A stretch of 64,000 nucleotides of DNA, from positions 1 through 64,000 of the forward strand of contig CAJWAA010000004.1 in assembly GCA_913020295.1 (NCBI GenBank), read 5' to 3'. The stretch's first letter is position 1. Every line of letters begins with the position of its first letter. A program made the translations under genes and the position numbers. The notes under the pieces are model-generated. The model searched no databases and had not been told where the DNA came from. It saw only the letters and a program-made list of their open reading frames with translations. Positions 1 through 14,288 of the stretch are shown here, piece after piece. The DNA is from an uncultured Flavobacteriaceae bacterium. GTDB lineage: Bacteria > Bacteroidota > Bacteroidia > Flavobacteriales > Flavobacteriaceae.

Positions 1-3000
1 GACAAACCTCTATCAGGCGCTAATCCTGATCCTACCGCTTGTACTAATAACACAACCTCTATAACATTAATTGTTTCAAATCCTCCAGTGGTTACCCTGA
101 CCGTAACTGGAAGTATCAACAATACTTTCTGCAGTGGAGAGGACTTAACTTATACAGCTACAGCAATTGTTTCTGCCTCTTACAGGTTTAAAGTTGATGG
201 AATAACTAGACAAAATTCAGTGAGTAATACATTCACTGTGAATAATATTACTGATGGACAAAATGTAAATGTTGAAATTACATTGGTTTCAGGTTGTACA
301 ATTTCAACTGCTACTGTAACGATGATTGAGAATGAAATAACTGATGCAGGAACCATCTCAGGAACCCAGCAAATTTGTTACAACAATATTCCAACTCAAT
401 TAACAAGTGTTTCTACTGCAACAGTTAGATATGCTGCATCAAATTTAAATTATGAATGGTATAGCTCAACAGATAATGTTACATTCAATCCCACAGGAAT
501 AACGACTCTTGATTTTCAACCTCCAGCACTAACTCAAACAAGTTATTTTAAAAGAGTTGTAACAAGCGAGCTAAATAATGAATTCTGTGATGCTGATTCT
601 AACATATTAATAGTTGAAGTTGCCCCAGAATTAATTGGTGGTACTGTTTTACCATTAAATGATCAATATTTATGTTTTGATCCATTAGCACCACCTATTT
701 TACCTCCTGCATCCCTATCTGTAACTAATAGTGTTGTAGATCCTTTAATAACTTATCAATGGCAAGAGTCAGCAGATACTGTAAGTTGGACAAATGTGGC
801 TGGTGAGGTAAATCCAACATTTAACCCCCCCCTTTTAACTTCATCACAAACTATTTATTATAGAAGAATGGTGAGAGCACTTGGCGGAGGAGCTGGGTGC
901 GAGGAGTTTAGTACTGTTCATTCATTATTTGTAAGTGATTTGGATCCAGGCGAAATTGATACTGCCTCTAATGAAACATATTGCTTTGGAACTAACCCAC
1001 CAATAATTGGAAGTACAATTGATGCGTCCTCATCATCTGGACCAGTTTCATATCAATGGGAAAGCAGAACAGCTGGAACTGCATATGCTCCTATTGGTGG
1101 TGCAACCCTCAATAGTTATAATCCTGGAATACTAACAGAAACTACTTGGTTTAAAAGAACCGTTTCCTCAAATATCAGTCTTACAACGTGTGAATTAGAA
1201 TCTAATGAGGTAATAATAGAAATTCTTAATGAGGTAAATACAGGAAACATTCTCACCAGTCAAGTTATATGTGAAAATACAATACCAAATGATCTTAATC
1301 TGGTTGGAGCAGATGCAGGTGGTTCAGTTTCTTATCAATGGGAAAGCTCTATTGATTATCTAAATTGGAGTGAGGTCACAGGTGAAGTTGGTAATACATT
1401 ATCTTTTTCATCTGTTGCAACCCAAACAACTTATTATAGAGTAGTTATAAGAAATGCTACTAACTCCCCAACGGTATTAGCCCCTAACCAAATGCAGTTA
1501 TTATTAACAAGAATTGCTAATCCATTAAAAGTAGGAGAAAACTATACAGTAGTTGTTGGTACAAACACCTATTCATTCACAACAACTAATATTGCAAGCG
1601 ATACAAACGATATTGGAGCTGCATTAGCAAATCTAATAGACGCTACTGGTGGAATAACTTCAAGTTATGATATTAATACCAATTCAATCGCTATTTCTCC
1701 AATAGTAAATAATGTCTCAGTATTTATTCAAAATCCAGATAATGCTCCATCTCATTCGATTAGAATTTTGAAATCTATTACTGGTGAGGGATGTTTAAGT
1801 ATAACAGACCCTGTAGCTATTGAGGTGACACCATTACCTACGCTTGAACAAAATGGTGGACCACTTAACTCTCAGGGGCCAATTTGTCCGGGTGATGCAA
1901 TTCAACCTATCACTTTCGAATGGTCTGGTGTTTCAACGGTTGTAATTGAAGATCTAAATACTGCCTACACCCCCTCTGCATTATTTGGTGGAACTGTTAC
2001 TACAACTGGTCTTCCTGTTGGATGGTATAGAGTTTATAATACAAACTCTTTTACAATAACTGGAACTGCAGGTCCTACTGATTTCTTTACCATAAGAACT
2101 GAAGGAAGTGATTGTACTGAACAGTTTATTGATTACTCTATTACTGTAAATCCAAATGCTGCTATCCCAGATGTAATAATGAAAGATTTCAATTCAATTG
2201 ATTATGCAGTATTATATAACCCTGATAATGATAAGTGGCACAATAACACGGTTTGTCAGGATAGAAATGATATTAATGGTGGAGGTCCGACTGGCAGTAC
2301 TGATTTTTATGCTTGTTTTGTAGACAATTCTTTTAATGTACTATATAATAATTTTGTTTGGAATATTGAACCTGAGGCTGCAGGTGCCCTTGTTCAAGAC
2401 GAGTTTCAACAGGCGAGGATATTAATTACTTCTGCAACAGCCACACTTACACCAGGTGCAGATTATACTGTTAGTATTAATGGAACAAGTTATACTGTTT
2501 CTTCTTCTGGAGCAGCTTACACCACAAATGATCTTGGGAATGATTTAGCTGCTGCAATTGCTGCTGATCCTGCAGTAAATGCAACTTTTGCTGCAGGAAG
2601 AATAGTTGTGACTGCACTTGTTCAAGATACACCATTTACAATCCAAAGAAATAATCCAATTACAGGTGGTGATAATGCTGTTCTTGGTAATCCAGAAATT
2701 GACACAGCCAATCAAAAAGTAACTATCAACTGGGATCAATTATTTTCTGGAACTGTTACATTGAGTGTTAGAACTGAGGGTTGTGGAGCACCGTCTGACT
2801 GGTATCGAGTAAGTATTGAGGTTGTACCGGAAACAGTTCTTCCAGGAGTTCAGGCTAGTGAAATTTTAGCTCCTTATGATATGAGCGCAATAAATCCAAA
2901 TTTTGGAGCAATTCTGTGCGATGGAGATTATACCAGTGTATTACCTAATTGTGAAATAACAAACAATACTAGAGATACACAATTTTTCTCGGCCACTGTA

Positions 3001-6000
3001 TCTGGAACTAACGATCATGCTTCTCTTGAATGGAGAATTACAAATCCTATACCAGGAAATCCCCTAGTTCCATCTCCAGGAATAATTAATCCATCTACAG
3101 GAGTAGTTAACTGGACTACAGGTTGGTGGGGAACCTTTGATATAGAAGTTAGACCTGTGTCATGTAGTGGAACAGTTACTGATACTTGGATTGGTACAAC
3201 CTTCACCATCGGACCAAGTGAAGACGATCGACCAAACATTCTACCACAGACTGATCTTCCTAATTGTCCAATACCAGCGGCTGGTCTTCAAACTACTCTT
3301 AGAGTTCCTGACTTTCCTGTTAGATGGTTCATTAATGACCTAAATGCTATACAAACGGGTGCTCCATCAAATGTTGTAATTAGTAACTTTAGAAGAGAGC
3401 TTCAGGCTGATGGAGGTACTAATGATCAAGAGCTTACACTTTACTGGAGACCAGGTTATTCTGGTGTAACGATAATTAGAGCTATACCTAGAGACTGTCC
3501 TGGATCACAAAGAAATTATGCCATAGTTGTTCCTGGCCCAGCTGATATTAGATGGATAGACCCAACTGATCCAAACTCCCCATTAGCTACAAATGGGCTT
3601 CCAAGTCAAACAGTTTGTCAAAACGAAAACATTGATGATATTACTTTTGAGCTCCTTGGTGCTGCAACTGGTGTCGTTTCTCAAGCCTCTATGAATTTAC
3701 CACCTGGTATTAATGCGAATGTTGTTAATTTCTTCCAAGAAAGTGAAATTACATTAACTGATGTAACAACTATTACTACTTCTAACCGATATACTATAAC
3801 AATTGATGGATTTGATTATGATTATAGAGTCCAAGGCGGTGATGATATTGATGATATTGGTAACGAACTTTCCAATAGTATTCCAGCAGCTGTAATATCA
3901 ACTACTTATGATGCAGCTACAAATATTTTATCGTTTGAAGGATTAATTGCTGGTAAATATTATGTAATTGTCCCTAACCCACCTGTAAATAACGGGGTTG
4001 ATATGTCAGCTCCCGTAAGTACTAATACACTTAGAAGAGTTACTCTCACTGGAGCTCCCGATAATTCTGCAACTACAGGAACTGATTATTTCTATAATAT
4101 TACAACTTCAAGTGAATCAAGTACTTGTACAACTGACACATTTGCTGGAAGTGCAATTACTGTAAGAAATAATCCATCAATTACGCTTGTTTCAGGTAAT
4201 ATTAGTGAAACTGTCTGTGATGGTTCTGCTATTAATCCAATTATTTTTAAAATTGACGATGCACCTAATATAGTTCTTCCAATACCTGGTCTACCTGCAG
4301 GTGTAAACGGCCAGTTTGCTGGAGGATTTTTAACTATTTCAGGCATCCCAAATATTGGACCTGCAGCACCCTTTACTTTCACGTATTCTGTAACAACAAT
4401 TAATGGAGCTTGTGCAGACACTATAGAGTACGGTAGTATTAGAGTTCAGCCTTCTCCTACAGTTAATATTGAAAACATATTAACTGAAAATCAAACTGTA
4501 TGTGCTCAAGAACCCATAACAAACATAGAATATACAGTAACTAATCCAGCATTTGGACTTGAATTTATTGCTGGCTCAACAGATCTACCCGACGGAGTAT
4601 CAGGAACACTCAATGTAAGAAATCAAGTTTCAGAAATTACTTTTGGAGGTGCAGCTGGGGTCACTGGAACGCTTAGTGTTGAGATAAATAGTGGTATTCC
4701 CATCACTTTCAATGCAGTAGCAACATCAACAATCGACGACGCAGGAACAAGTCTAGCTGCCAATATTGATGCTAGCCCAAATTATCAGGCAACTTATGCT
4801 GGAGGTGTAATTGAAATAACTCATAATAATTCAGGTGTTGCCTTCTCTACTGTTGTAGATGGTGGAGGAACGAATATTACAATGAGTTCGTCAATAGAGA
4901 CTACCCCCGCCGTTTTTGTCATATCAGGTACACCATCTGTTACGGCAGGAGGTCTTCCTAAAACATATTTTTATGATCTAAGGGCAACAGGTCCCTCCTG
5001 TACAGATGGCAGTAGCATTGCAAGTGGAACAATCCTAGTAAATCCTAATACCTCAGGTACACTTAATGCTGCCTTTGGAAGTGATGATCAATCAGTTTGT
5101 GATGAAACACCTATTGATCAGATTCAATACAATTTAGTTGGTGCGGCAGCAGTTGCACCTGATGCTGGAAATCCTGCATGGTTAAATGGTAATCTAGATT
5201 TAGCTGCGCAGACATTTACAATTGATGCAACTCCTGTAGTAGGTAATCTTCAAGAACAAACATTTGAGTACAGCTTTACCGTTCTTGGTAATGCATTTGG
5301 TTGTGCAGCCAGCACAAGTACCCTTTCTGGAATTATAACAGTTATACCAGCCGAGAGATTAATTCTAACTTCCGGTGTTGCCTCTCCAAGTCAAGAAGTT
5401 TGCTTAGAAAATGATATTATTGATATTGTTTATGAATTCTCAGGCTCAGCAAATGCTGTAGCATTTTCAGTCGCAGGTTTACCAACAGGTGTTACGGGTA
5501 ATTATACCCCAAGACAGCAAGTAAGTGTTATTCAAATTAATAATACAGGAGTTACTGTAGTATCTGAGACTTATGTTATAAATGTTAACTCAGTACCTTA
5601 CAACTTTAATGCCCCTATTGGAAGTGATGAGAATGATATTGGATCAGGAATTGCAAATCAAATTGATGGTGATCCTGATGTGAGTGCTTCCTTTGACAAT
5701 GGAACAAATAGAATAACAATAACTGCCAATGTGGCTGGAGATTCATTTGGAATTTACATACCTAGCAGTACTAACACAATTGGATTTAATAGGCCCACAC
5801 TCGCTACAAGCCAGGGTGTATATGTTATAAGGGGAAGGCCCACAAATAATGTTTCAGGAACTTTCAATTATACACTAACCACACCGGGTATAATTTGTGA
5901 TCCTGATACTCAACTAGGTGCAATAATTGTTCACCCTAATTCTACAATTGAAATAGCTGCAGGAACGACTGACAATCAAACAATTTGCGATGGTAGTGTT

Positions 6001-9000
6001 GGGGATTTTGTAGACATGGTTTACAATATCGGAGGTGGAGCTAGAGGAATTATCGCTAGTGGTTTACCGCAGGGAATAGTTCCAGTATTAGATAATGCTC
6101 TGAATCCAACAACTGTTACTCTTCAAGGTGACCCAGTTACAGGTGATACAGGTACAAATATTTATAATTTTACACTCACCACAACAGCCAATGAGGAAGG
6201 TTGTGATGAGGTTTCAATTAATGGAACAATAACAATTGAGCCAAATGATACCTTGACACCATCACCTACAACCGCTCCAGCGATAATCTTTAATCAAGAA
6301 ATTTGTATTGGTGAACCCATCACTCCAGTGGTTTATGAATTCTCTGGAGGTGCAATCGGAGCTTCTGCAACTGGACTTCCCCCTGGAGTCAATGACAGTT
6401 TTGAATACAGAAAACAAATTACTTCAGTCAGATTTACGGGTCCTAACATTAACGCAAATGAAGTCTATAATGTAATTATTGATAATATAACTCATACTGC
6501 TACCTCTACTGCTGGTCAAAGTCCATCAGACGTTGTTACTGATCTGATAGCTATTATTAATGCTGAGTCCACTGTTGCCACTGCATCTAATAATGGGAGT
6601 ATTTTGATTCTTACAAGTGTTAATGATGGACAAGCTTTCAGTGTTAGAACAGATAAAAGTGCATTTGCTCAGTTAACAATTGATCCTCCTGTACTGGAAA
6701 ATGGAACTGGTATTTTATCCATTACTGGAACTCCTACCATCAATGCTATTATTGCCGGACAATCAAGTCAGAGTTATACAATCACAGTTACTACTGTTAA
6801 TGGAAATGGATGTGAAATTGATATCGAAAATCCAACAATAAAAGTAAACTCCACATCAACAATAAGTGTAACATCATTGCCTTCCACTCTTGCTCAAAAT
6901 TTATGTTTGAATGTGGATATTGATCCAATTCAGTTTACTATTGGAGGAGGGGCCACTTTTGCAATCGATGATGGTGGATTGCCGCCAGGAGTTGGACTAA
7001 ATCCACTAGGAGGAAATAATTTTGAAATTGTGGGTAAACCAGTAGTTGCAATTTTAGTACCAACTACATATACATTTACTGTTTCTACAACAGGCAATGC
7101 GGGAGGTTGTGAAGAAGTTTCGTTCACAGGAACTATAATTATCTCACCTGACGATGAGATTAGTTTATCATCTGTTGCAACTACCACTAATCAAACAATA
7201 TGTGTGGGTAATGATCCGTCAATTAGTCAGATAACTACAATCACATATCAATTGGCTGGTGGAGCTACTAATGCCTCAGCTGCTGGATTACCGGCTGGAA
7301 TTCAAGCCAACTATGATCCAATAACTAGAGTATTTTCAATTTTTGGATTTTCAACCGAGACAGTTACCAATACTACAACATTCAATTACACAGTAACAAC
7401 CTCCGGCACGTGTATAAATGATAGTGAAAATGGCTCAATAATCGTAGAGCCAAGCGCAACTTTAAGCTTGACTTCGGTTTCCTCTACACTTAATCAAACT
7501 TTATGTGATAATACCGCTATAAATAATATTGAATTTGATCTAGTTGGCAGTGCTTTAGGAGCTCAAGTATCAGGACTTCCTGCTGGAGTGGATCTTAATA
7601 TAGTTGGTCTGACTGCTGTAATTTCGGGATCACCAGCTACGGCAGTGTTAACTCCTACAACATATTCTTTCACTATAACTGCTACTACTGGTTCTGGATG
7701 TGAGGTTAATAGCTACTCAGGAGAAATCAATGTATTACCTGATGATGGGTTAACTCTTACATCGCCCGCTACATCAATAAGTCAAGAGATTTGTGTATCT
7801 AACGACCCAATACTTAGTAGACTAACAACAATCACATATGAACTATCAGGAGGAGCAACTTCTGCTAATTTCATTGGATTACCTCCTGGATTTGGGACAA
7901 TTTATGATCCAATATCTAAAGTATATAGTATTTATGGTTCAACCACTGGTTCAACAGTTACCCAAACAACAATTTATAATTATACCGTTACTACATCTGG
8001 AACATGCGCTGCACAGACTGAGGTTGGTGATATAACTATTGTTCCAATAGCTACTATAGACGTAACATCAGTTAGTTCAACCCTTAATCAAACAATTTGT
8101 GATGGAGATAATATTACTCCTATCACATTTGACTTTGGAGGAAGCGCAACAAATGCTTCTGGATTAGGTCTTCCATTGGGTGTAACTCTTGGACCTATTG
8201 TTGGAAATACAATTACAATTAGTGGACCAGCAAATGTAAATGTAGTAACTCCGACAACATATACATTTACTGTAACCGCAACTGGTAATGGAACCTGTGA
8301 AGAAGAATCTTTTACTGGTAGGATTGTTATTTTACCAAATGATACGCTGACTCACTTATCGGGTGATAAAAATCCAACTATATGTAATGGTAATGATCCT
8401 GCTAATCCTGGTATGACTCCAATTGTTTACCAATTAGGTGGTGGAGCAACTTCAGGAATAGTAACAGGGCTTCCTAATGGAGTTTCATTTACTTATAGTG
8501 CAACTACACGTCAGCTAACAATCGACGGAATACCATCACTAGCAATTGCTGTACCTACACCCTTTAATTATACAGTTACTACTATTGGCTCATGCGCAAG
8601 TCAAACTGATTCTGGAATAATTACGGTTAATCCTTTGTCTACAATTTCACTCTCATCAGCTATTTCAACTACCAGTCAAATTGGTGCGGATGGAATATGT
8701 ATGGGAGATAGCATAGCTGAAATTTTCTACACCTATGGTGGTGGTGCAACATCATTCTCAATTTCTGGTTTACCTGCTGGTGTTCAGGCTCAAGCCACAG
8801 GAAATCCAAATGAAGTAAGAATTTTTGGAGAACCAAACACAGGATCAACTGTAATGGAGATATTTACTTATACAATTTCAACTACTGGTAATCCCTGTGC
8901 GCCAGAAACGAGCTTGAGTGGAGTTATCCAGGTAAATCCATCTCCATCCATTGATAGTAACTTTATCTTAAATAACGATGTAACTCATGTGACATGTAAC

Positions 9001-12000
9001 GGAGGAAGTGATGGATCAATTGTAATACCTGAGGCATCTCCAGCATTTGATTTACGAATTTTTGGTGGTCAAAACAGTGTAAGGCAAGTAGATCGATTAA
9101 GTATTACTGGAAACTTTAATATGGGGGATAGAGTTCATGTTATAATTAATGGCAACCCGTATACTCATATTGTAGAGGAAACTGCCTTTGGAAGTGGAAT
9201 TGCTGAAGGTAACCTATCAATTGCATCTAAATTAACAGATATAATAAATAATGCTATTCCCGCATTAGCTGTTCCAGTTACAGCTAGTGCCGTGGCTCCT
9301 GGAGATATTGTTCTTAATGCAGATACTGCTGGAGTTCCTTTCACTGTTACTTTCCCAGTTCCTCCTACTCAAACATTATTAAATGGAGATATTTCAAATA
9401 CTAATGTAGTAGCTAATCTACCATTGAATTACAATTATTTATGGACCTACCCTGATAACTCAACTAATACTAACTTGAGTATTTATAATCTTCAAGCGGG
9501 TGATTATACGTTTGAAGTTACATTAAATGGGTGTTCCTCTGGTGTAGCAAGTTTTACAATCGAGGAACCTGACGCTCTTACAATCTCAACTACATCTTGT
9601 AATGGAGCATTTACTGCACTTGTTGAGGGAGGCACTGCTCCTTATACTCTGACATTATTTGATAGTAATAATGTTCAAATTGATCAAGTAGTTTCAAATA
9701 GTGGTAAAACATATGTTGGACTTACACCAGGTGCAGATTACAGACTTGAGGTATTAGATTCAAGGTGTGCAATCATGGAACAAATTGCAATTGAACTTCC
9801 TTTCGGCCTTCAATATGATGATTCTAGAACTAGGGTTGTAAATGATTTCTGTGATGAAGTCCCAATAAATATTGGTGGTGGAAGTATTGAACTTGAAACT
9901 AATCTTGGTCTAGCATTCAGTGGCGGATCTAACCAGTATACTTATTCCTGGACAGGCCCTAATGCCTATACTAATAGTACAATGAACATAACAAACCTTT
10001 TACCAGGAGTTTATACTGTTAGAGTAATAGATAATATTTTCAATTGTGAGGATACTCAGAGCTTCACCATTCTTCCTGCCGACCCAATTACTGTAATCCC
10101 CACAGGAGGAACATCCCCCTCACCACAGGCGGGAGTTAGTAATGTTGCAGACTTTAAAGTTGATATAACTTGTCCTGGAGATACATTTACACTTGAAGTT
10201 CAGGCTCAAGGAGGTGGTACTATTAACCACATATACAATTGGACTAGAAATGGCATTGCTATTGCCCCAGCTGGAGCAGGTAATCAATTAACTGCAAGCC
10301 AACCTGGCATCTATAATGTTGAAGCCTCTATAGATTTGACTGGAGTTGACATTCCATATCAATTTACTGCGGCTCAAATGGTATGTGCACAGAGTATTTC
10401 TTTCGAAGTAGTTGAACCAACTGAAATGAGTATTGTTGAAATTTTCGACAGAAGAGTGATTCCTGCATGTTCTGGTGACACAGCTCAACTTGTTTTTGAA
10501 GTAGTTGGAGGTGCACTAAATGCAGGACCCTATACGCTTGATTTACAAAATGGAGCTCTATCTGGAACTTCAGTTGGTGGAGCAAGTGTCAAAGAAATTA
10601 TAATAAATGGAATCGATACCAATAATCTTGGTCAGTTGACTGATTATACCATAACCGATGTTAATGGATGTAGCACAACTGCAACTCTCACTACGATGAT
10701 AGAATTACCACAATTTTTAGATTCTAGTTTCCAAATTGATGGTAATAATATCGACTGTGCTAATGGAGAGGAAGGTAGAATTGATATCTCATTGAATTCA
10801 GCAACCGCTCCCTCTGAAGTTGGTGTTCAAGTTTCATCAACTGGATCTAATTTCAACTATTTTGTTAATTGGGATAATCCTGCTGCTGGAAGTATTTCGG
10901 TTCCTATAGGCCAGGCTGGAATTTATACTGTCAGAATAATTGGTATTCCAGCAGTTGGAAATACAAGCACTAATACAACAGTTTGTGATATTTTTTCTGG
11001 AAATATTGAAATCCAAGAAACTGAAAATAGTCAAATACTATTAAGAGATATTGAAACCACGCAACCTGGTTGTGGAGAAACTGTAGGGTCAATTTCTCTA
11101 ATTTTTGACGAGCCCACAATTCCTCCAACAATGTCAATTAGATGGGAGAAGTTTGTAACATCAACTACTAGTTCAACCTCAGGAACAATTAATTCTCAAG
11201 AATGGTCTCCAATTCCATCTTTAGATAATCAATTAATTGCATCAGATCTTGAACATGGAACCTATAGAGGAATTATTGATCCTGGAAATACACAAAACGG
11301 TTGCGGTGGAGGAATAATTATTACTCGTTCCATTGCGATTGGCAATAATTCAGGTATCGAAATTTTAAATCCAAGGTATGTGGCCGTTAATCAAAATCCT
11401 TATCCATGTGACAATCCAGACGGTCTTAAATATAATCTTTTGTTTAGAGTTGATAATAATCTTGATGATTTTTCAGGTAATTTAGAAATTACTGTAAATA
11501 AAATAAGCTCAGTTGGCATTCCATACAGCCAGACATTCCAGACCAATGCTCAAGGTCAAGGCGGAATTTCTATACCTTCAACTCAAGATAAAAGTGGAGC
11601 TTACAGAATAGAGGAAGTGCCTTTTGGGGAATTTGAAATTTTAATTAGTGAATCTGGAGGAGCGACAAACACCACCTCATGTGATGTAGTTCAAACGATT
11701 GTGATTCCAGAAGTAGTAGACTTAGTTTACACAGGCGATTTACAGTTTGAAATTGATCCATGTATAGAAGAGGTAACAATTGAAGCGTCCGTGGAGGGTG
11801 GTCAGCCATTTGTTTCACCAAATGGCGATACTTTTTATCAATATAAATGGGTATTAACTACAACTGATAATGAAATTTTTAATTATTCTGGCAAAAGTAT
11901 AATTGTTCGAGATGCTGGAAATCTTGAGCTTACTGTCTATGATAGTTCAGGATGCGAGTATACTCTTATAGATCAGACAAGCCCCATAGAAATAAACGAG

Positions 12001-13269
12001 GGAATTAGTCCTTACAGGTTAGAACCTAGACTCAATAATAATACTGAATTTGCTGAGGAGCCAACTTGTGACAACCCACTAAGAGATAATGGTCAAATCA
12101 ATTTTGAAGTTGTAGGTGGAGATCTTCCTCAAGGAGGTCAATATCCATATGAAATAATATGGGAGAAATTTGATGTTGGAACTAACTCTTATCTTGAAAT
12201 GAACGGTAGTAGCGGCTTACCTAACCTAGCTAATCAACAGTTTGCTAATAATCTTGTACCTGGACAATATAAAATTAGTATTGTACCTATGAATTGGAGT
12301 TGTACTGGGCAATCACCATTTGACACTGTAGCTATTTCAAAAAATATTACTGTTCCACAAAATCAAGACCTTGTAATCACTAATGGACCTCTTATTAACT
12401 TGAGCGAGTATGACTTCTCTGATCCAAACCAGCTAACCATTTGTGATGTTGGTGGAGCTGGTAATCTTTATGTCAGGGTATTTAATAACTACGAGGGTGA
12501 TTTAAGTTTTTACTATCCTACTGATACGGATTTGGTTCCAGCAGAACAACTAGATGGACAATCATACAGAGTTCAAATCTCACAATCAGTTGCTGACGGT
12601 GTTTTAACAGTTACAAATGAGGAGGGATGTAGGCTTAGTGTAGATATAGGTCTTGAAATTGGAGAACCTAGTTTTAATTACAACTCACTAAATGCTCAAA
12701 TTTCAGGAAACTCCACTCAAACCCAACTTCCACTAATACTTGCTCGGGAGGAAGTTACATTTACAAATGTCTCAACTGGAACATATACATATTCTGAGTG
12801 GGATTTTGGAGATAGTAGCCCAGTTGAAAGATATCCATTCTTGGCTGGGGCTGTATCACCAGTCACGCATGTTTACGGCGTCTCTGGAACTTATTATCCA
12901 AAACTTAGAGTATATAATTCGGTTGGTTGTTATAAAGAGTCAGTTGAGGTGCTGGTTGTTGGAAAAGGTTATAATATTTTAGCTCCAAATGTATTTACTC
13001 CTAACGGAGATACCTATAATGATACATACAGGCCTCTTTTCAGCGGTTTCCAATCTATTCAACTAACTATCTACGACTACCGTGGAAATTTACTTTATTT
13101 TGAGGAATCCTCAGCTGATCCTGCTAACCCTTTACAGCCGATAACTCTAAACGGTTGGAATGGTGACATAAATACAGAGTCTCCATATTATATTTACACA
13201 GTTTCCGGAGTTACCCTTTTCGGTGATATAGATGTTCAAAAAAGTGGAACCTTTATTATTATTAGATAA
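1..13269 (+). CDS. Giant T9SS-secreted SprB-like adhesin, 5' partial
   Basis: The frame is open from base 1, so the N-terminus and signal peptide lie outside; 4422 residues are visible. In order they hold four Ig-like modules sharing a YQWE-type core (about 346-1830), two longer unique modules, fourteen modules with a Q-T-I/V-C strand and a GLPxGV turn followed by ISGTP (about 3600-8940), SprB-type repeats with VTCNGGSDGSI and SWTGPN motifs (from about 8940), a PKD-like domain with WDFGDSSP and a conserved HVYG turn (about 12700-12960), and a gliding-motility-associated C-terminal domain beginning NVFTPNGDTYND (about 12973-13269). That last domain is the type B sorting signal of type IX secretion, so the protein is expected outside the cell. 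The role in adhesion or gliding is inferred from the family; the ligand is unknown. An eight-C tract lies at 825-832. Confidence 0.9.
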   Translation, partial: DKPLSGANPDPTACTNNTTSITLIVSNPPVVTLTVTGSINNTFCSGEDLTYTATAIVSASYRFKVDGITRQNSVSNTFTVNNITDGQNVNVEITLVSGCTISTATVTMIENEITDAGTISGTQQICYNNIPTQLTSVSTATVRYAASNLNYEWYSSTDNVTFNPTGITTLDFQPPALTQTSYFKRVVTSELNNEFCDADSNILIVEVAPELIGGTVLPLNDQYLCFDPLAPPILPPASLSVTNSVVDPLITYQWQESADTVSWTNVAGEVNPTFNPPLLTSSQTIYYRRMVRALGGGAGCEEFSTVHSLFVSDLDPGEIDTASNETYCFGTNPPIIGSTIDASSSSGPVSYQWESRTAGTAYAPIGGATLNSYNPGILTETTWFKRTVSSNISLTTCELESNEVIIEILNEVNTGNILTSQVICENTIPNDLNLVGADAGGSVSYQWESSIDYLNWSEVTGEVGNTLSFSSVATQTTYYRVVIRNATNSPTVLAPNQMQLLLTRIANPLKVGENYTVVVGTNTYSFTTTNIASDTNDIGAALANLIDATGGITSSYDINTNSIAISPIVNNVSVFIQNPDNAPSHSIRILKSITGEGCLSITDPVAIEVTPLPTLEQNGGPLNSQGPICPGDAIQPITFEWSGVSTVVIEDLNTAYTPSALFGGTVTTTGLPVGWYRVYNTNSFTITGTAGPTDFFTIRTEGSDCTEQFIDYSITVNPNAAIPDVIMKDFNSIDYAVLYNPDNDKWHNNTVCQDRNDINGGGPTGSTDFYACFVDNSFNVLYNNFVWNIEPEAAGALVQDEFQQARILITSATATLTPGADYTVSINGTSYTVSSSGAAYTTNDLGNDLAAAIAADPAVNATFAAGRIVVTALVQDTPFTIQRNNPITGGDNAVLGNPEIDTANQKVTINWDQLFSGTVTLSVRTEGCGAPSDWYRVSIEVVPETVLPGVQASEILAPYDMSAINPNFGAILCDGDYTSVLPNCEITNNTRDTQFFSATVSGTNDHASLEWRITNPIPGNPLVPSPGIINPSTGVVNWTTGWWGTFDIEVRPVSCSGTVTDTWIGTTFTIGPSEDDRPNILPQTDLPNCPIPAAGLQTTLRVPDFPVRWFINDLNAIQTGAPSNVVISNFRRELQADGGTNDQELTLYWRPGYSGVTIIRAIPRDCPGSQRNYAIVVPGPADIRWIDPTDPNSPLATNGLPSQTVCQNENIDDITFELLGAATGVVSQASMNLPPGINANVVNFFQESEITLTDVTTITTSNRYTITIDGFDYDYRVQGGDDIDDIGNELSNSIPAAVISTTYDAATNILSFEGLIAGKYYVIVPNPPVNNGVDMSAPVSTNTLRRVTLTGAPDNSATTGTDYFYNITTSSESSTCTTDTFAGSAITVRNNPSITLVSGNISETVCDGSAINPIIFKIDDAPNIVLPIPGLPAGVNGQFAGGFLTISGIPNIGPAAPFTFTYSVTTINGACADTIEYGSIRVQPSPTVNIENILTENQTVCAQEPITNIEYTVTNPAFGLEFIAGSTDLPDGVSGTLNVRNQVSEITFGGAAGVTGTLSVEINSGIPITFNAVATSTIDDAGTSLAANIDASPNYQATYAGGVIEITHNNSGVAFSTVVDGGGTNITMSSSIETTPAVFVISGTPSVTAGGLPKTYFYDLRATGPSCTDGSSIASGTILVNPNTSGTLNAAFGSDDQSVCDETPIDQIQYNLVGAAAVAPDAGNPAWLNGNLDLAAQTFTIDATPVVGNLQEQTFEYSFTVLGNAFGCAASTSTLSGIITVIPAERLILTSGVASPSQEVCLENDIIDIVYEFSGSANAVAFSVAGLPTGVTGNYTPRQQVSVIQINNTGVTVVSETYVINVNSVPYNFNAPIGSDENDIGSGIANQIDGDPDVSASFDNGTNRITITANVAGDSFGIYIPSSTNTIGFNRPTLATSQGVYVIRGRPTNNVSGTFNYTLTTPGIICDPDTQLGAIIVHPNSTIEIAAGTTDNQTICDGSVGDFVDMVYNIGGGARGIIASGLPQGIVPVLDNALNPTTVTLQGDPVTGDTGTNIYNFTLTTTANEEGCDEVSINGTITIEPNDTLTPSPTTAPAIIFNQEICIGEPITPVVYEFSGGAIGASATGLPPGVNDSFEYRKQITSVRFTGPNINANEVYNVIIDNITHTATSTAGQSPSDVVTDLIAIINAESTVATASNNGSILILTSVNDGQAFSVRTDKSAFAQLTIDPPVLENGTGILSITGTPTINAIIAGQSSQSYTITVTTVNGNGCEIDIENPTIKVNSTSTISVTSLPSTLAQNLCLNVDIDPIQFTIGGGATFAIDDGGLPPGVGLNPLGGNNFEIVGKPVVAILVPTTYTFTVSTTGNAGGCEEVSFTGTIIISPDDEISLSSVATTTNQTICVGNDPSISQITTITYQLAGGATNASAAGLPAGIQANYDPITRVFSIFGFSTETVTNTTTFNYTVTTSGTCINDSENGSIIVEPSATLSLTSVSSTLNQTLCDNTAINNIEFDLVGSALGAQVSGLPAGVDLNIVGLTAVISGSPATAVLTPTTYSFTITATTGSGCEVNSYSGEINVLPDDGLTLTSPATSISQEICVSNDPILSRLTTITYELSGGATSANFIGLPPGFGTIYDPISKVYSIYGSTTGSTVTQTTIYNYTVTTSGTCAAQTEVGDITIVPIATIDVTSVSSTLNQTICDGDNITPITFDFGGSATNASGLGLPLGVTLGPIVGNTITISGPANVNVVTPTTYTFTVTATGNGTCEEESFTGRIVILPNDTLTHLSGDKNPTICNGNDPANPGMTPIVYQLGGGATSGIVTGLPNGVSFTYSATTRQLTIDGIPSLAIAVPTPFNYTVTTIGSCASQTDSGIITVNPLSTISLSSAISTTSQIGADGICMGDSIAEIFYTYGGGATSFSISGLPAGVQAQATGNPNEVRIFGEPNTGSTVMEIFTYTISTTGNPCAPETSLSGVIQVNPSPSIDSNFILNNDVTHVTCNGGSDGSIVIPEASPAFDLRIFGGQNSVRQVDRLSITGNFNMGDRVHVIINGNPYTHIVEETAFGSGIAEGNLSIASKLTDIINNAIPALAVPVTASAVAPGDIVLNADTAGVPFTVTFPVPPTQTLLNGDISNTNVVANLPLNYNYLWTYPDNSTNTNLSIYNLQAGDYTFEVTLNGCSSGVASFTIEEPDALTISTTSCNGAFTALVEGGTAPYTLTLFDSNNVQIDQVVSNSGKTYVGLTPGADYRLEVLDSRCAIMEQIAIELPFGLQYDDSRTRVVNDFCDEVPINIGGGSIELETNLGLAFSGGSNQYTYSWTGPNAYTNSTMNITNLLPGVYTVRVIDNIFNCEDTQSFTILPADPITVIPTGGTSPSPQAGVSNVADFKVDITCPGDTFTLEVQAQGGGTINHIYNWTRNGIAIAPAGAGNQLTASQPGIYNVEASIDLTGVDIPYQFTAAQMVCAQSISFEVVEPTEMSIVEIFDRRVIPACSGDTAQLVFEVVGGALNAGPYTLDLQNGALSGTSVGGASVKEIIINGIDTNNLGQLTDYTITDVNGCSTTATLTTMIELPQFLDSSFQIDGNNIDCANGEEGRIDISLNSATAPSEVGVQVSSTGSNFNYFVNWDNPAAGSISVPIGQAGIYTVRIIGIPAVGNTSTNTTVCDIFSGNIEIQETENSQILLRDIETTQPGCGETVGSISLIFDEPTIPPTMSIRWEKFVTSTTSSTSGTINSQEWSPIPSLDNQLIASDLEHGTYRGIIDPGNTQNGCGGGIIITRSIAIGNNSGIEILNPRYVAVNQNPYPCDNPDGLKYNLLFRVDNNLDDFSGNLEITVNKISSVGIPYSQTFQTNAQGQGGISIPSTQDKSGAYRIEEVPFGEFEILISESGGATNTTSCDVVQTIVIPEVVDLVYTGDLQFEIDPCIEEVTIEASVEGGQPFVSPNGDTFYQYKWVLTTTDNEIFNYSGKSIIVRDAGNLELTVYDSSGCEYTLIDQTSPIEINEGISPYRLEPRLNNNTEFAEEPTCDNPLRDNGQINFEVVGGDLPQGGQYPYEIIWEKFDVGTNSYLEMNGSSGLPNLANQQFANNLVPGQYKISIVPMNWSCTGQSPFDTVAISKNITVPQNQDLVITNGPLINLSEYDFSDPNQLTICDVGGAGNLYVRVFNNYEGDLSFYYPTDTDLVPAEQLDGQSYRVQISQSVADGVLTVTNEEGCRLSVDIGLEIGEPSFNYNSLNAQISGNSTQTQLPLILAREEVTFTNVSTGTYTYSEWDFGDSSPVERYPFLAGAVSPVTHVYGVSGTYYPKLRVYNSVGCYKESVEVLVVGKGYNILAPNVFTPNGDTYNDTYRPLFSGFQSIQLTIYDYRGNLLYFEESSADPANPLQPITLNGWNGDINTESPYYIYTVSGVTLFGDIDVQKSGTFIIIR
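346..1830 (+). repeat. Four tandem YQW Ig-like modules in the adhesin
   Basis: The tryptophan codons of the Y-x-W core fall at 457, 760, 1057 and 1339, giving spacings of 303, 297 and 282 nt. Each unit ends with an aromatic-rich strand of the form YYRRxV or YFKRVV. The repeats are recognisable at the protein level and are diverged in DNA, so they look old. The fourth unit carries an inserted module (1486-1740). Confidence 0.8.
3600..7200 (+). repeat. Adhesin supermodule array, period about 890-900 nt
   Basis: Cysteine codons that open equivalent modules lie at 3616, 4501, 5401 and 6304, with the next equivalent at 7201: spacings 885, 900, 903 and 897 nt. Each supermodule is a pair of Ig-like units; the first of each pair carries an inserted module of about 85 residues after its GLPxGV turn, the second does not. 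The copies are diverged but keep the C-strand, the GLPxGV turn and the ISGTP strand. Confidence 0.75.
7201..8970 (+). repeat. Adhesin supermodule array, period 591-600 nt
   Basis: Cysteine codons of the units with a CxxNDP motif lie at 7201, 7792 and 8383, spaced exactly 591 and 591 nt. The intervening units have cysteine codons at 6904, 7504, 8098 and 8698, spaced 600, 594 and 600 nt. This is the same two-unit supermodule as in the preceding array but without the inserted module, which accounts for the shorter period. Confidence 0.75.
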
Positions 13270-14288
13270 TGAGAAAGAATAGGCTCACTTTTTTGACACT
13301 AATTATACTGATAACCTTATGCTTAAAAGGTTACAGTCAAGAAGATTATATTGTCAATCAAGCCAAATTTCTACAAAAATCAAATCCTAGTCATTTTGGA
13401 ATGAATCAACTTAACAGAGTTGGTGTTTTATATAATAGTTTAAGAATCAATGAAGCTACTGCAATGGACAATAAATATGCTTTTGGTTCAATCGCTTTTC
13501 AAGACAATAATTTTTCATTAGGCTTTGATATTAATTCTTTCAGAATAAATGAAACTGGATTAATTTCATCTCTGGTAAATTTCAGTTATGTTTATAAAAT
13601 TCAATTAAGTAACTACACATATTTTTTACCATCTGTCACACTTGGTCTTGGAAGTTCTAGAGTAAATGTAGATAATTTAGTTTTTGAGGATCAATTAAAT
13701 ATGGCAACTGGTTTTATAAGTACAGAATCCATTGACCCACTTGCACCAATAATTAGTAATGTAAATTACTTTGATCTCGGCGCTTCATTTATTATTCATA
13801 ACGAATACTATATGGTTGGCTTAAGTTTAAAACATTTAAACAAACCGAATGTTTCATATAATAAAGAAGTTCCATATGCAAAGCCTATTTCTATTGGGTT
13901 ACAAGGGGGATATGAATTCAATATTAATCCATATGAACGATCACTTCTTCCAAGATATTCTTACCTGTTTACTTTCCTTAATTTAACCAAATATGGTGAG
14001 TCAATTTATATGAGTTTAGCAGAGGATTTCCAATTTGGTGAATTTTCAATTGGATTTACTCAACAAGTTGCATCAGTTGACTCTTTCTCGCTTAATAATT
14101 TTGGTTTAACGCTAGGACTTGCACTGGAAAATTTTGACTTTGGAATTAATTACAATTTTCCTAATAGAAAACCTGGATCTGTATTTTCACCCAGTATTTT
14201 CGAATTAAGTATTATTTTTGACTTCAGTATCTACAGAAGAAATAATAGAGGGCTATACAAGAAACTTCAAATCGACAACTACTACTAA
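13269..14288 (+). CDS. PorP/SprF family type IX secretion outer-membrane protein
   Basis: 339 residues with an N-terminal signal peptide (hydrophobic to about residue 20, cleavage expected after GYSQ) and then alternating aromatic strands of an outer-membrane barrel. The N-terminal pattern after the signal, with NQAKFLQKSNPSHFGMNQ, fits the PorP/SprF family, members of which help export or anchor one large type B T9SS substrate. The start codon overlaps the adhesin stop codon by one base (TAATG), which implies translational coupling and a dedicated pair, as with SprB and SprF. The C-terminus is basic (RRNNRGLYKK), unusual for an exposed end but seen in the family. The family call is strong; the specific partnership is inferred from position. 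Confidence 0.88.
   Translation: MRKNRLTFLTLIILITLCLKGYSQEDYIVNQAKFLQKSNPSHFGMNQLNRVGVLYNSLRINEATAMDNKYAFGSIAFQDNNFSLGFDINSFRINETGLISSLVNFSYVYKIQLSNYTYFLPSVTLGLGSSRVNVDNLVFEDQLNMATGFISTESIDPLAPIISNVNYFDLGASFIIHNEYYMVGLSLKHLNKPNVSYNKEVPYAKPISIGLQGGYEFNINPYERSLLPRYSYLFTFLNLTKYGESIYMSLAEDFQFGEFSIGFTQQVASVDSFSLNNFGLTLGLALENFDFGINYNFPNRKPGSVFSPSIFELSIIFDFSIYRRNNRGLYKKLQIDNYY

Follow-up and report, generated by a model that had tools for sequence, protein, structure and literature searches.

A repeated module nested in a giant flavobacterial adhesin and related to outer domains of phage tail sheaths and flagellar proteins

The outer domains of flagellin and of the flagellar cap protein FliD are inserted in their proteins and face outward; domain 2 of GbpA from Vibrio cholerae is not nested. 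The external extension domain of the Milano phage tail sheath is described as residues 91–203, inserted in a sheath body made up of residues 24–90 and 204–380 (PMC10811340). GbpA is presented in PMC3257281 as a chain of four domains in which domain 2, distantly like flagellin p5, occurs once and, together with domain 3, binds the surface of its own bacterium. Giant adhesins of the SprB type in Flavobacteriaceae have PorP/SprF partners, and the pairing of type B substrates of the type IX secretion system (T9SS) with PorP/SprF-type shuttle genes is an arrangement described in PMC12618676. Here we describe a module that occurs seven times in a giant surface adhesin encoded at the start of a 64,000-nucleotide stretch of DNA from an uncultured Flavobacteriaceae bacterium (contig CAJWAA010000004.1 of assembly GCA_913020295.1; hereafter the window, which is our contig C4 from base 1). 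The module is repeated, is nested in host domains, has a predicted fold of its own, and is by computation kin to the outer domains of phage tail sheaths, other phage tail proteins, flagellin and FliD.

With the sheath extension domains of Mu, Milano, A-1(L) and PhiTE the module shares the same predicted fold over most of its length (Z 9.5–11.6 for these four in VIA-align comparisons) and a link between sequence profiles, and like the module the sheath domain is itself inserted in a body domain (described in PMC10811340). It differs in being nested in immunoglobulin (Ig)-like and SprB-like domains of a bacterial protein, seven times over, and in that the adhesin has no sheath family match. Flagellin and FliD are like the module in fold (Stenotrophomonas maltophilia flagellin, Z 9.4 and 10.2; FliD, 6.6), and FliD also in sequence profile, whereas no flagellar family matches the whole adhesin. 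The likeness to GbpA domain 2 is a weak one of fold (Z 7.1). SprB-type adhesins are likewise giant repeat proteins, to which the weakly matched, putative type B C-terminus and the candidate PorP/SprF-family gene next to this adhesin may be compared, and here an SprB-like repeat is host to one module; the nested sheath-like modules are the difference. No description of such a module in T9SS adhesins was found among the titles and abstract openings that searches of an open-access library listed; what we regard as new is that a T9SS-type adhesin uses a known outer domain as a side-domain, nested and in several copies. With moderate confidence we read the module as a self-folding 'plug-in' side-domain, kin to phage and flagellar outer domains, which is nested in the adhesin shaft, forms lateral adhesive knobs and occupies mostly old insert positions.

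Seven copies of one module in four kinds of host

All seven copies lie on the forward strand. Copy c1 (1489..1779, aa 497–593) sits late in a host of the pattern 'YQWxxS...TTYYR', and c2 (2407..2709, aa 803–903) in a host of the pattern 'WNIEPxAAG ... TINWDxxFSGT'. Copies c3 (3736..4029, aa 1246–1343), c4 (4624..4908, aa 1542–1636), c5 (5518..5811, aa 1840–1937) and c6 (6415..6705, aa 2139–2235) occupy the hosts H1, H3, H5 and H7 of a row of xLPxG domains, and c7 (9085..9429, aa 3029–3143) lies in an SprB-repeat-like host, soon after its conserved GG and before YxYxW. Insert starts were set at a Gln, and ends were judged by eye from hosts that have no insert. This gives inserts of about 95–115 residues; a preliminary description, made from the sequence alone, had been right about the repeated module but had put it at 85 residues.

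The copies are diverged, the others being 16–31% identical to c5. That they are copies of one module, as the preliminary description held, was borne out by leave-one-out profiles: in all seven trials a profile of six copies recovered the withheld copy as its next-best match, with domain E-values from 4.7e-5 (c7) to 4e-14 (c5) in searches of two sequences with filters off. Background stretches did less well: the strongest stood at 0.0015 in a single trial, and in none of the other six was it better than 0.015. Profile searches of the adhesin frame and of a 2606-aa frame of a second contig (C2, see below) turned up no eighth copy, and neither did one of the window's genome at E up to 10. A profile widened over four rounds gave, at E<1e-3, 172 matches in the real set, training proteins and overlapping loci included, versus 0 in reversed and shuffled proteins. 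The wide profile A5 holds 89 copies (E<1e-5, 70 or more model positions), among them some whose loci overlap within a single frame; domain counts from the wide-profile, decoy and pair comparisons likewise include overlapping loci. A Gln marks the junction in all seven window copies (aa 497, 803, 1246, 1542, 1840, 2139 and 3029), in hosts of different kinds, and in 72 of the 76 copies whose match reaches the profile start. It is present in 62 of 76 filled A5 rows and is the second most conserved column, against a Gln background of 3.2% in these adhesins. A role at the entry strand is the only explanation that we can offer.

The fourteen xLPxG host domains, H1–H14 (3571..8943, forward strand), form an uninterrupted row in which four hosts without an insert are interleaved with the four that carry one. 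The ten insert-free hosts align with the insert-bearing ones on both sides, and the gap between is the module. The shared site of c3–c6 had been placed directly after a GLPxGV turn, with the host resuming at ISGTP. The four do share one site in an xLPxG[VI] host, and all begin eight residues after the turn, inside the hairpin, when the start is set at Gln. GLPxGV is literal in c5 and c6 only (c3 has NLPPGI, c4 DLPDGV). After the insert the host continues in a strand that closes on G-x-P (VTLTGAP, VISGTP, VIRGRP and SITGTP), which is literally ISGTP only in c4. By eye the xLPxG hosts are of two alternating types, with inserts confined to the first four of the odd-numbered hosts. A tree of the fourteen hosts, with H1 and H7 trimmed by a few host residues, is poorly resolved: it has no starred branch and needs three changes for insert presence, and a single origin of the four xLPxG inserts would be compatible with it.

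The remaining copies, as the preliminary description had noticed, sit elsewhere: c1, c2 and c7 are each in a different further kind of host, giving four host kinds in one protein, and modules are found in several host kinds in other proteins as well. For the c7 host, 13 SprB-like hosts with the insert (nine of them from close Arenibacter/Maribacter-type relatives) and 11 without it (picked by hand from 24 listed) align on both sides of the insert. This host fits the pattern C ... DG-x-I ... GG ... W ... G-x-Y, and in its alignment with the 11 insert-free repeats, from public genomes, the columns C, D, G, I, G, G, W, G and Y are invariant; we take this pattern to be what is called the SprB repeat. 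A scan of the whole protein down to E 1 gave no match to a Pfam SprB family, and the splitting of the domain by the insert may account for this. Since hosts with and without the module align on both sides, the module is very unlikely to be an integral part of the Ig-like fold.

An AlphaFold2 model of host H5 together with c5, built from 19 rows, had a mean pLDDT of 89.5 and a pTM of 0.80, with pLDDT 94–97 over residues 71–130. The module is predicted to fold as β-β-β-α-β-β, followed by a strand back into the host, and to grow out of a hairpin of the Ig-like host as a separate fold. The self-contained fold with adjacent ends expected of an insertion at a host loop is thus what this model predicts. 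Comparison of the host part of H5 (rows spanning about 1..196 with the insert skipped, some 84–96 residues aligned) gave SraP at Z 10.6 and titin-like Ig domains at about 8, for H5 only.

In the predicted structure the first and last strands of the module lie side by side, and the two strands of the host hairpin run out into the module and back, an arrangement that would leave an Ig-like or SprB-like shaft domain undisturbed by a module in one of its β-hairpins. The modules would then form lateral knobs along the adhesin fibre. As both ends of the module meet in one hairpin, the models suggest that an insertion should widen the fibre and not, as had been proposed, lengthen it. The knobs would most likely supply girth and a contact surface for glycans or neighbouring fibres. 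By analogy with additional sheath domains, for which a help to adhesion or stability has been suggested (PMC9230969), and with domains 2 and 3 of GbpA, lateral adhesive contact seems the likeliest function, at a probability that we put near even, and girth or stability the next. The modules may instead be passive spacers or stiffeners of the shaft with no binding role, a reading that we think unlikely, though it survives better than the other alternatives. The 16 most conserved module columns are consistent with it, being mostly hydrophobic, Gly or turn positions with the junction Gln, and without a conserved charged patch. It sits less easily with an insertion that, in the models, would add girth and not length, and with the weak fold relative GbpA domain 2, which binds the bacterial surface with domain 3 (as described in PMC3257281).

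Kinship with phage-tail and flagellar domains

The top Protein Data Bank (PDB) match of the H5–c5 model in Foldseek was the cyanophage A-1(L) sheath (4e-4); most other top matches were Ig-like surface proteins, as expected for the host. VIA-align, for which the best Z is typically 7–8 with models that have no clear match, was run on Foldseek's list. Residues 53–155 of the model aligned with residues 102–214 of the Mu sheath at Z 11.6 (97 aligned, 2.2 Å), and further matches were the P-SCSP1u tail protein (residues 148–240; 11.5), the sheaths of A-1(L) (11.4), PhiTE (11.2) and Milano (11.1), and S. maltophilia flagellin (residues 174–286; 9.4). For c7 in its SprB-like host the same comparison gave the PhiTE sheath (11.5), Mu (11.2), flagellin (10.2), the Kp9 tail complex (9.4), GbpA (7.1) and FliD (6.6), and the matched range of the Milano sheath was 91–204, which corresponds to its extension domain at 91–203 (PMC10811340). 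The tail proteins of P-SCSP1u and Kp9 are presumably of the kind called 'nozzle'. Named matches in a viral library include baseplate and tail sheath proteins.

Sequence profiles led to the same proteins. The best PDB sequence for the seven-copy profile was the Milano sheath (0.0017). With the 89-copy profile the Milano sheath (1.8e-4), the phage 7-7-1 sheath (6.3e-4), gp76 (6.6e-4) and an RTX-adhesin (0.0011) followed the top match, with Phi92 gp130 (0.0043) and the PhiTE sheath (0.005) lower; the Mu sheath (0.7) was not significant. The tail-sheath family phrog_165 matched 22 of the 89 copies at 0.01 or better, at best 6e-9. A5 also found five genomes with a frame of 483–595 aa that is FliD by Pfam. 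In hhalign comparisons the module matched the middle region of FliD at 95.7% with 89 copies and 76% with seven, and under alternative settings at 91.6% and 40.3%, against 0.03–0.32% for reversed and host controls.

Family scans gave the module no common name. Among the 89 copies at 0.01, Pfam matched eight families, each in one or two copies and none common to the copies at large, including Phage_nozzle in two (0.0015) and Big_13 (4.8e-5) and K1-lyase_C in one each; no flagellin-type model matched at this threshold. Pfam, PHROGs and NCBIfam scans of the whole adhesin likewise yielded no name for the module. The Pfam scan (E up to 1) matched PKD_4, PKD, CHU_C and Sgo0707_N2 (0.25) only, with no sheath or flagellar family, and the PHROGs scan matched only phrog_6064, at 0.045; the body domain of a contractile tail sheath protein was thus not seen elsewhere in the adhesin. 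Nucleotides 3616–6720 of the window as a single query gave 69 pattern matches and no relative, and copy c2 against viral contigs gave 20 pattern matches and no relative.

Several results weigh against this kinship. The c7 model was weaker (pLDDT 73.1, pTM 0.53) and in Foldseek had no PDB match at E<=0.001, the best being the Mu sheath at 1.7e-3; the Z scores of its FliD (6.6) and GbpA (7.1) matches are of a size that the tool regards as common. The top PDB sequence for the 89-copy profile was MpAFP RII, an adhesin repeat of the Ig-like kind, at 2.5e-6 (0.042 for its best single stretch); Top7 and other designed proteins matched the profile at about 0.002, and the one Big_13 match is to an Ig-like family. 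As the FliD set was itself found with the module profile, the 95.7% of hhalign is not independent, and when the five FliD proteins were searched locally with A5 (hmmsearch) only L103 passed, the other four falling at the bias filter. Finally, tblastn against 50,697 phage records at E 1 found nothing for the single queries c2, a c7-type composite (L069) and two other modules.

The sheath and flagellar likeness may be questioned as convergence on a common small α/β arrangement in Ser/Thr/Ala/Gly-rich proteins, which we consider rather improbable. The E-values to solved sheaths are modest, at best 1.8e-4, Top7 and designed folds match too, and a single FliD protein of five passes the local search. 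Against this, the same structures lead for c5 and c7 in different hosts, Z reaches 11.6 where 7–8 is typical, phrog_165 reaches 6e-9 for one copy as well as 0.01 or better for the 22, and reversed-sequence controls come out negative. Kinship with the MpAFP RII and RTX-adhesin repeats was considered and dropped: no single RII stretch scored better than 0.042 and the RII repeat is said in PMC4083281 to be an Ig-like domain, so that the match was tentatively put down to composition.

Distribution and descent of the insert positions

The module was detected in 15 of 299 Flavobacteriaceae genomes at 1e-4, the window's included. Eleven of the 15 genomes are 2.2 Mb or less; the four larger ones have one copy each, at a c7-type site in a protein of about 2,500 aa. 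In the phylum A5 matched 12 of 395 genomes: that of the window, six of one other family (f17) and the five with FliD. Module-bearing frames of family f17 are 2,341–15,320 aa long. Among its loci (L036–L052, and L095–L101 in part) the frames of up to 15,320 aa are rich in copies, some of which hint at similar modules placed in dissimilar hosts. Elsewhere, copies per protein reach 16 (L053) and 19 (L054). The 19 copies in the 5175-aa frame of L054 (genome G052) are the most in any protein seen, and some directly adjoin, for example aa 824–918 and 924–1014. Among loci from named genomes, modules are present in 12 of 22; these 12 are from Arenibacter, Maribacter and uncultured relatives.

Relatives with comparable arrays have inserts in comparable places. 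Global alignment places the five modules of L064 with c1, c2, c3, c4 and c7. In L061, L064, L065 and L081 the xLPxG array has inserts at the first and third positions and then empty hosts, apart from one weak later copy in L081; 9–12 array hosts were detected in these four versus 14 in the window, the L061 contig ending inside the array. By its host flank the second array insert goes with c4 in L065 (86 bits) and L063 (53 bits) and with c6 in L058 (66), L061 (40) and L081 (42). The rows of L058, L061 and L081 that we had labelled c4 also fall with the window's c6 in the tree of copies (starred branch, 98/88), so the c4 label is partly wrong. Because the second insert matches c4 in some relatives and c6 in others, c4 and c6 both look old. 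Copy c5 has no clear counterpart in the relatives' xLPxG arrays. In L081 and L082 weaker copies were seen at aa ~2211, 3429 and 3850–3859 (in L081, E 5e-5, 2e-2 and 4e-6), where the window protein has no detected module.

Best matches were counted in both module and host flank, over ordered pairs, for targets with at least three copies; the pair L063/L064 and all pairs among L053, L055, L056 and L057 were left out (L055 and L057 come from one genome). With flanks of at least 80 bits the best match of the module was also that of its flank in 31 of 37 cases (permuted mean 6.3, highest 21), and at 40 bits in 90 of 221 (permuted mean 36.3, highest 60). A tree was made of 33 of 86 copies, 31 of them with sites assigned by hand from flanks and order; L064 was left out as a near copy of L063. 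The site label needed 8 changes on this tree (least possible 4, shuffled mean 18.9), and the protein label 25 (least possible 12, for 13 proteins; unshuffled). Copies at c7 form one side of a branch (79/64), c3 and c4 need two changes and c1 and c2 three, most branches being weak. Across genera, then, a copy tends to fall with others from the corresponding host site, so that most were probably in place before the genera split; most insert positions would on this evidence have been fixed before several genera separated, with the copies inherited in place.

Recent copies have a different history. G290 and G081 are the only Flavobacteriaceae genomes with module pairs at 0.5 identity or more, and in those pairs with both flanks measured the flank identity averages at least 0.36. 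In L053 the units around 3686, 4093 and 4494 repeat in module (0.68–0.81) and flanks (0.56–0.98) alike. Judged from these alignments, the recent extra copies in the two related genomes are clearly best taken as duplications of host and insert as one unit. The earlier suggestion that the module spreads by internal duplication is not borne out in that form: these clear recent copies were duplicated with their hosts, and most others look old and group by site.

One observation in G081 runs counter to such joint duplication. Two hosts there (L055 aa 1–480 against L056 aa 874–1351) share DNA at 98–100% identity, over about 120 bases ahead of the module and 180 behind it, and the modules between fall to 43–72% per 60 bases, with a sharp valley at the module borders. 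These modules are closer to their G290 counterparts (0.67 and 0.69) than to each other (0.53); the two hosts are successive by comparison with L053 and lie on different contigs of an incomplete assembly. Gain or loss of the module alone is made probable by two further sites: L081 has a c2-type host and L065 a c1-type host without a module, the latter read from the sequence. In the alignment these two sites show no module but 101 and 82 loosely aligned residues, and we call both only probably empty. In f17, like modules occur in less like hosts in L042 (0.50, flanks 0.31 and 0.24) and between L036 and L041 (0.63, flanks 0.36 and 0.21).

If the module were an actively mobile cassette jumping between loops, the seven copies would be internal transpositions. 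We judge this improbable. The four host kinds in one protein, the two empty sites, which are probably orthologous to c1 and c2, the G081 valley and the f17 pairs speak for it, as do the four relatives in which all hosts past the c4-type one are empty, at the places of c5 and c6 too (the one weak L081 copy aside). It is opposed by the low identity of the window copies to c5, by the grouping of copies by site across genera, and by the G290 and G081 pairs, whose flanks, where both were measured, average 0.36 identity or more. We hold it just as doubtful that the hosts are sockets kept alike by recombination, with the modules as interchangeable recognition cassettes giving distinct lateral binding faces; the G081 valley, the junction Gln and the probably empty sites are traces to be expected of such a system.

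The modules appear constrained, with no sign of diversification. In five pairs of relatives dN/dS was 0.04–0.24 in modules and 0.05–0.22 elsewhere, at dS of about 0.5–2.2, which is near saturation; the proposal that the module diversifies the fibre finds no footing in values within the range of the rest of the proteins. Faster evolution of the module was considered and set aside: the flanks were more alike than the modules in 43 of 59 site pairs, yet the dN/dS values of the five pairs had no consistent direction.

It is scarcely credible that the module is an integral, elaborated hairpin of the Ig-like host, with the seven alike only as related Ig repeats are: the modelled hosts are indeed β-sandwiches with the insert in a hairpin, and MpAFP RII tops the PDB matches and one copy of 89 matches Big_13, but ten xLPxG hosts and eleven aligned SprB-like repeats have no module, the remaining hosts belong to different kinds, the module contains a helix and resembles sheath proteins and flagellin where the host resembles Ig-like proteins, and the module and host profiles match at 0.06–0.14%.

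The adhesin gene and what the nested domains mean

The adhesin frame (1..13269, forward strand) encodes 4422 aa and is open at the contig start, its 5′ end missing. The contig break falls in a repeat (DKPLSGANPDPTAC) within the gene. The first 42 bases of the window recur at C2 175581–175622 (L003), 18 bases short of the end of C2, and an in-frame 2606-aa frame of C2, whose start by eye resembles a signal peptide, ends in these shared bases. This frame is probably the other, N-terminal half of the adhesin gene, which would make the full protein about 7,000 aa or more; the link is made less certain by a junction that runs through a repeat and by the final 18 bases of C2, which differ.

At the C-terminus a PKD domain scored above the Pfam cut-off. 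The T9SS type B sorting domain TIGR04131 matched aa 4328–4368 of 4422 at 21.9 bits (cut-off 35), and CHU_C aa 4328–4399 at 22 bits (cut-off 27). Directly 3′ of the adhesin lies a gene for a candidate PorP/SprF-family protein (13269..14288, forward strand), matched by TIGR03519 over aa 6–319 of 339 (E 1.3e-23, 83.9 bits, curated cut-off 90.55). That the sorting-domain and PorP/SprF matches both fall under their curated cut-offs counts against the assignment. The adhesin is probably secreted by the type IX system, and would be displayed on the surface.

If the module is the nested side-domain that we propose, phage tail sheaths, flagellar proteins and giant T9SS-type adhesins, which are usually studied apart, are linked through one outer domain, inserted in another domain both in the adhesin and in the sheath (as described in PMC10811340). 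A module without a Pfam family gains a structural identity. Insert-bearing and insert-free hosts within one protein provide a test system for the gain, retention and duplication of nested domains. If the modules bind, they would be the contact faces of a large and poorly annotated class of flavobacterial adhesins.

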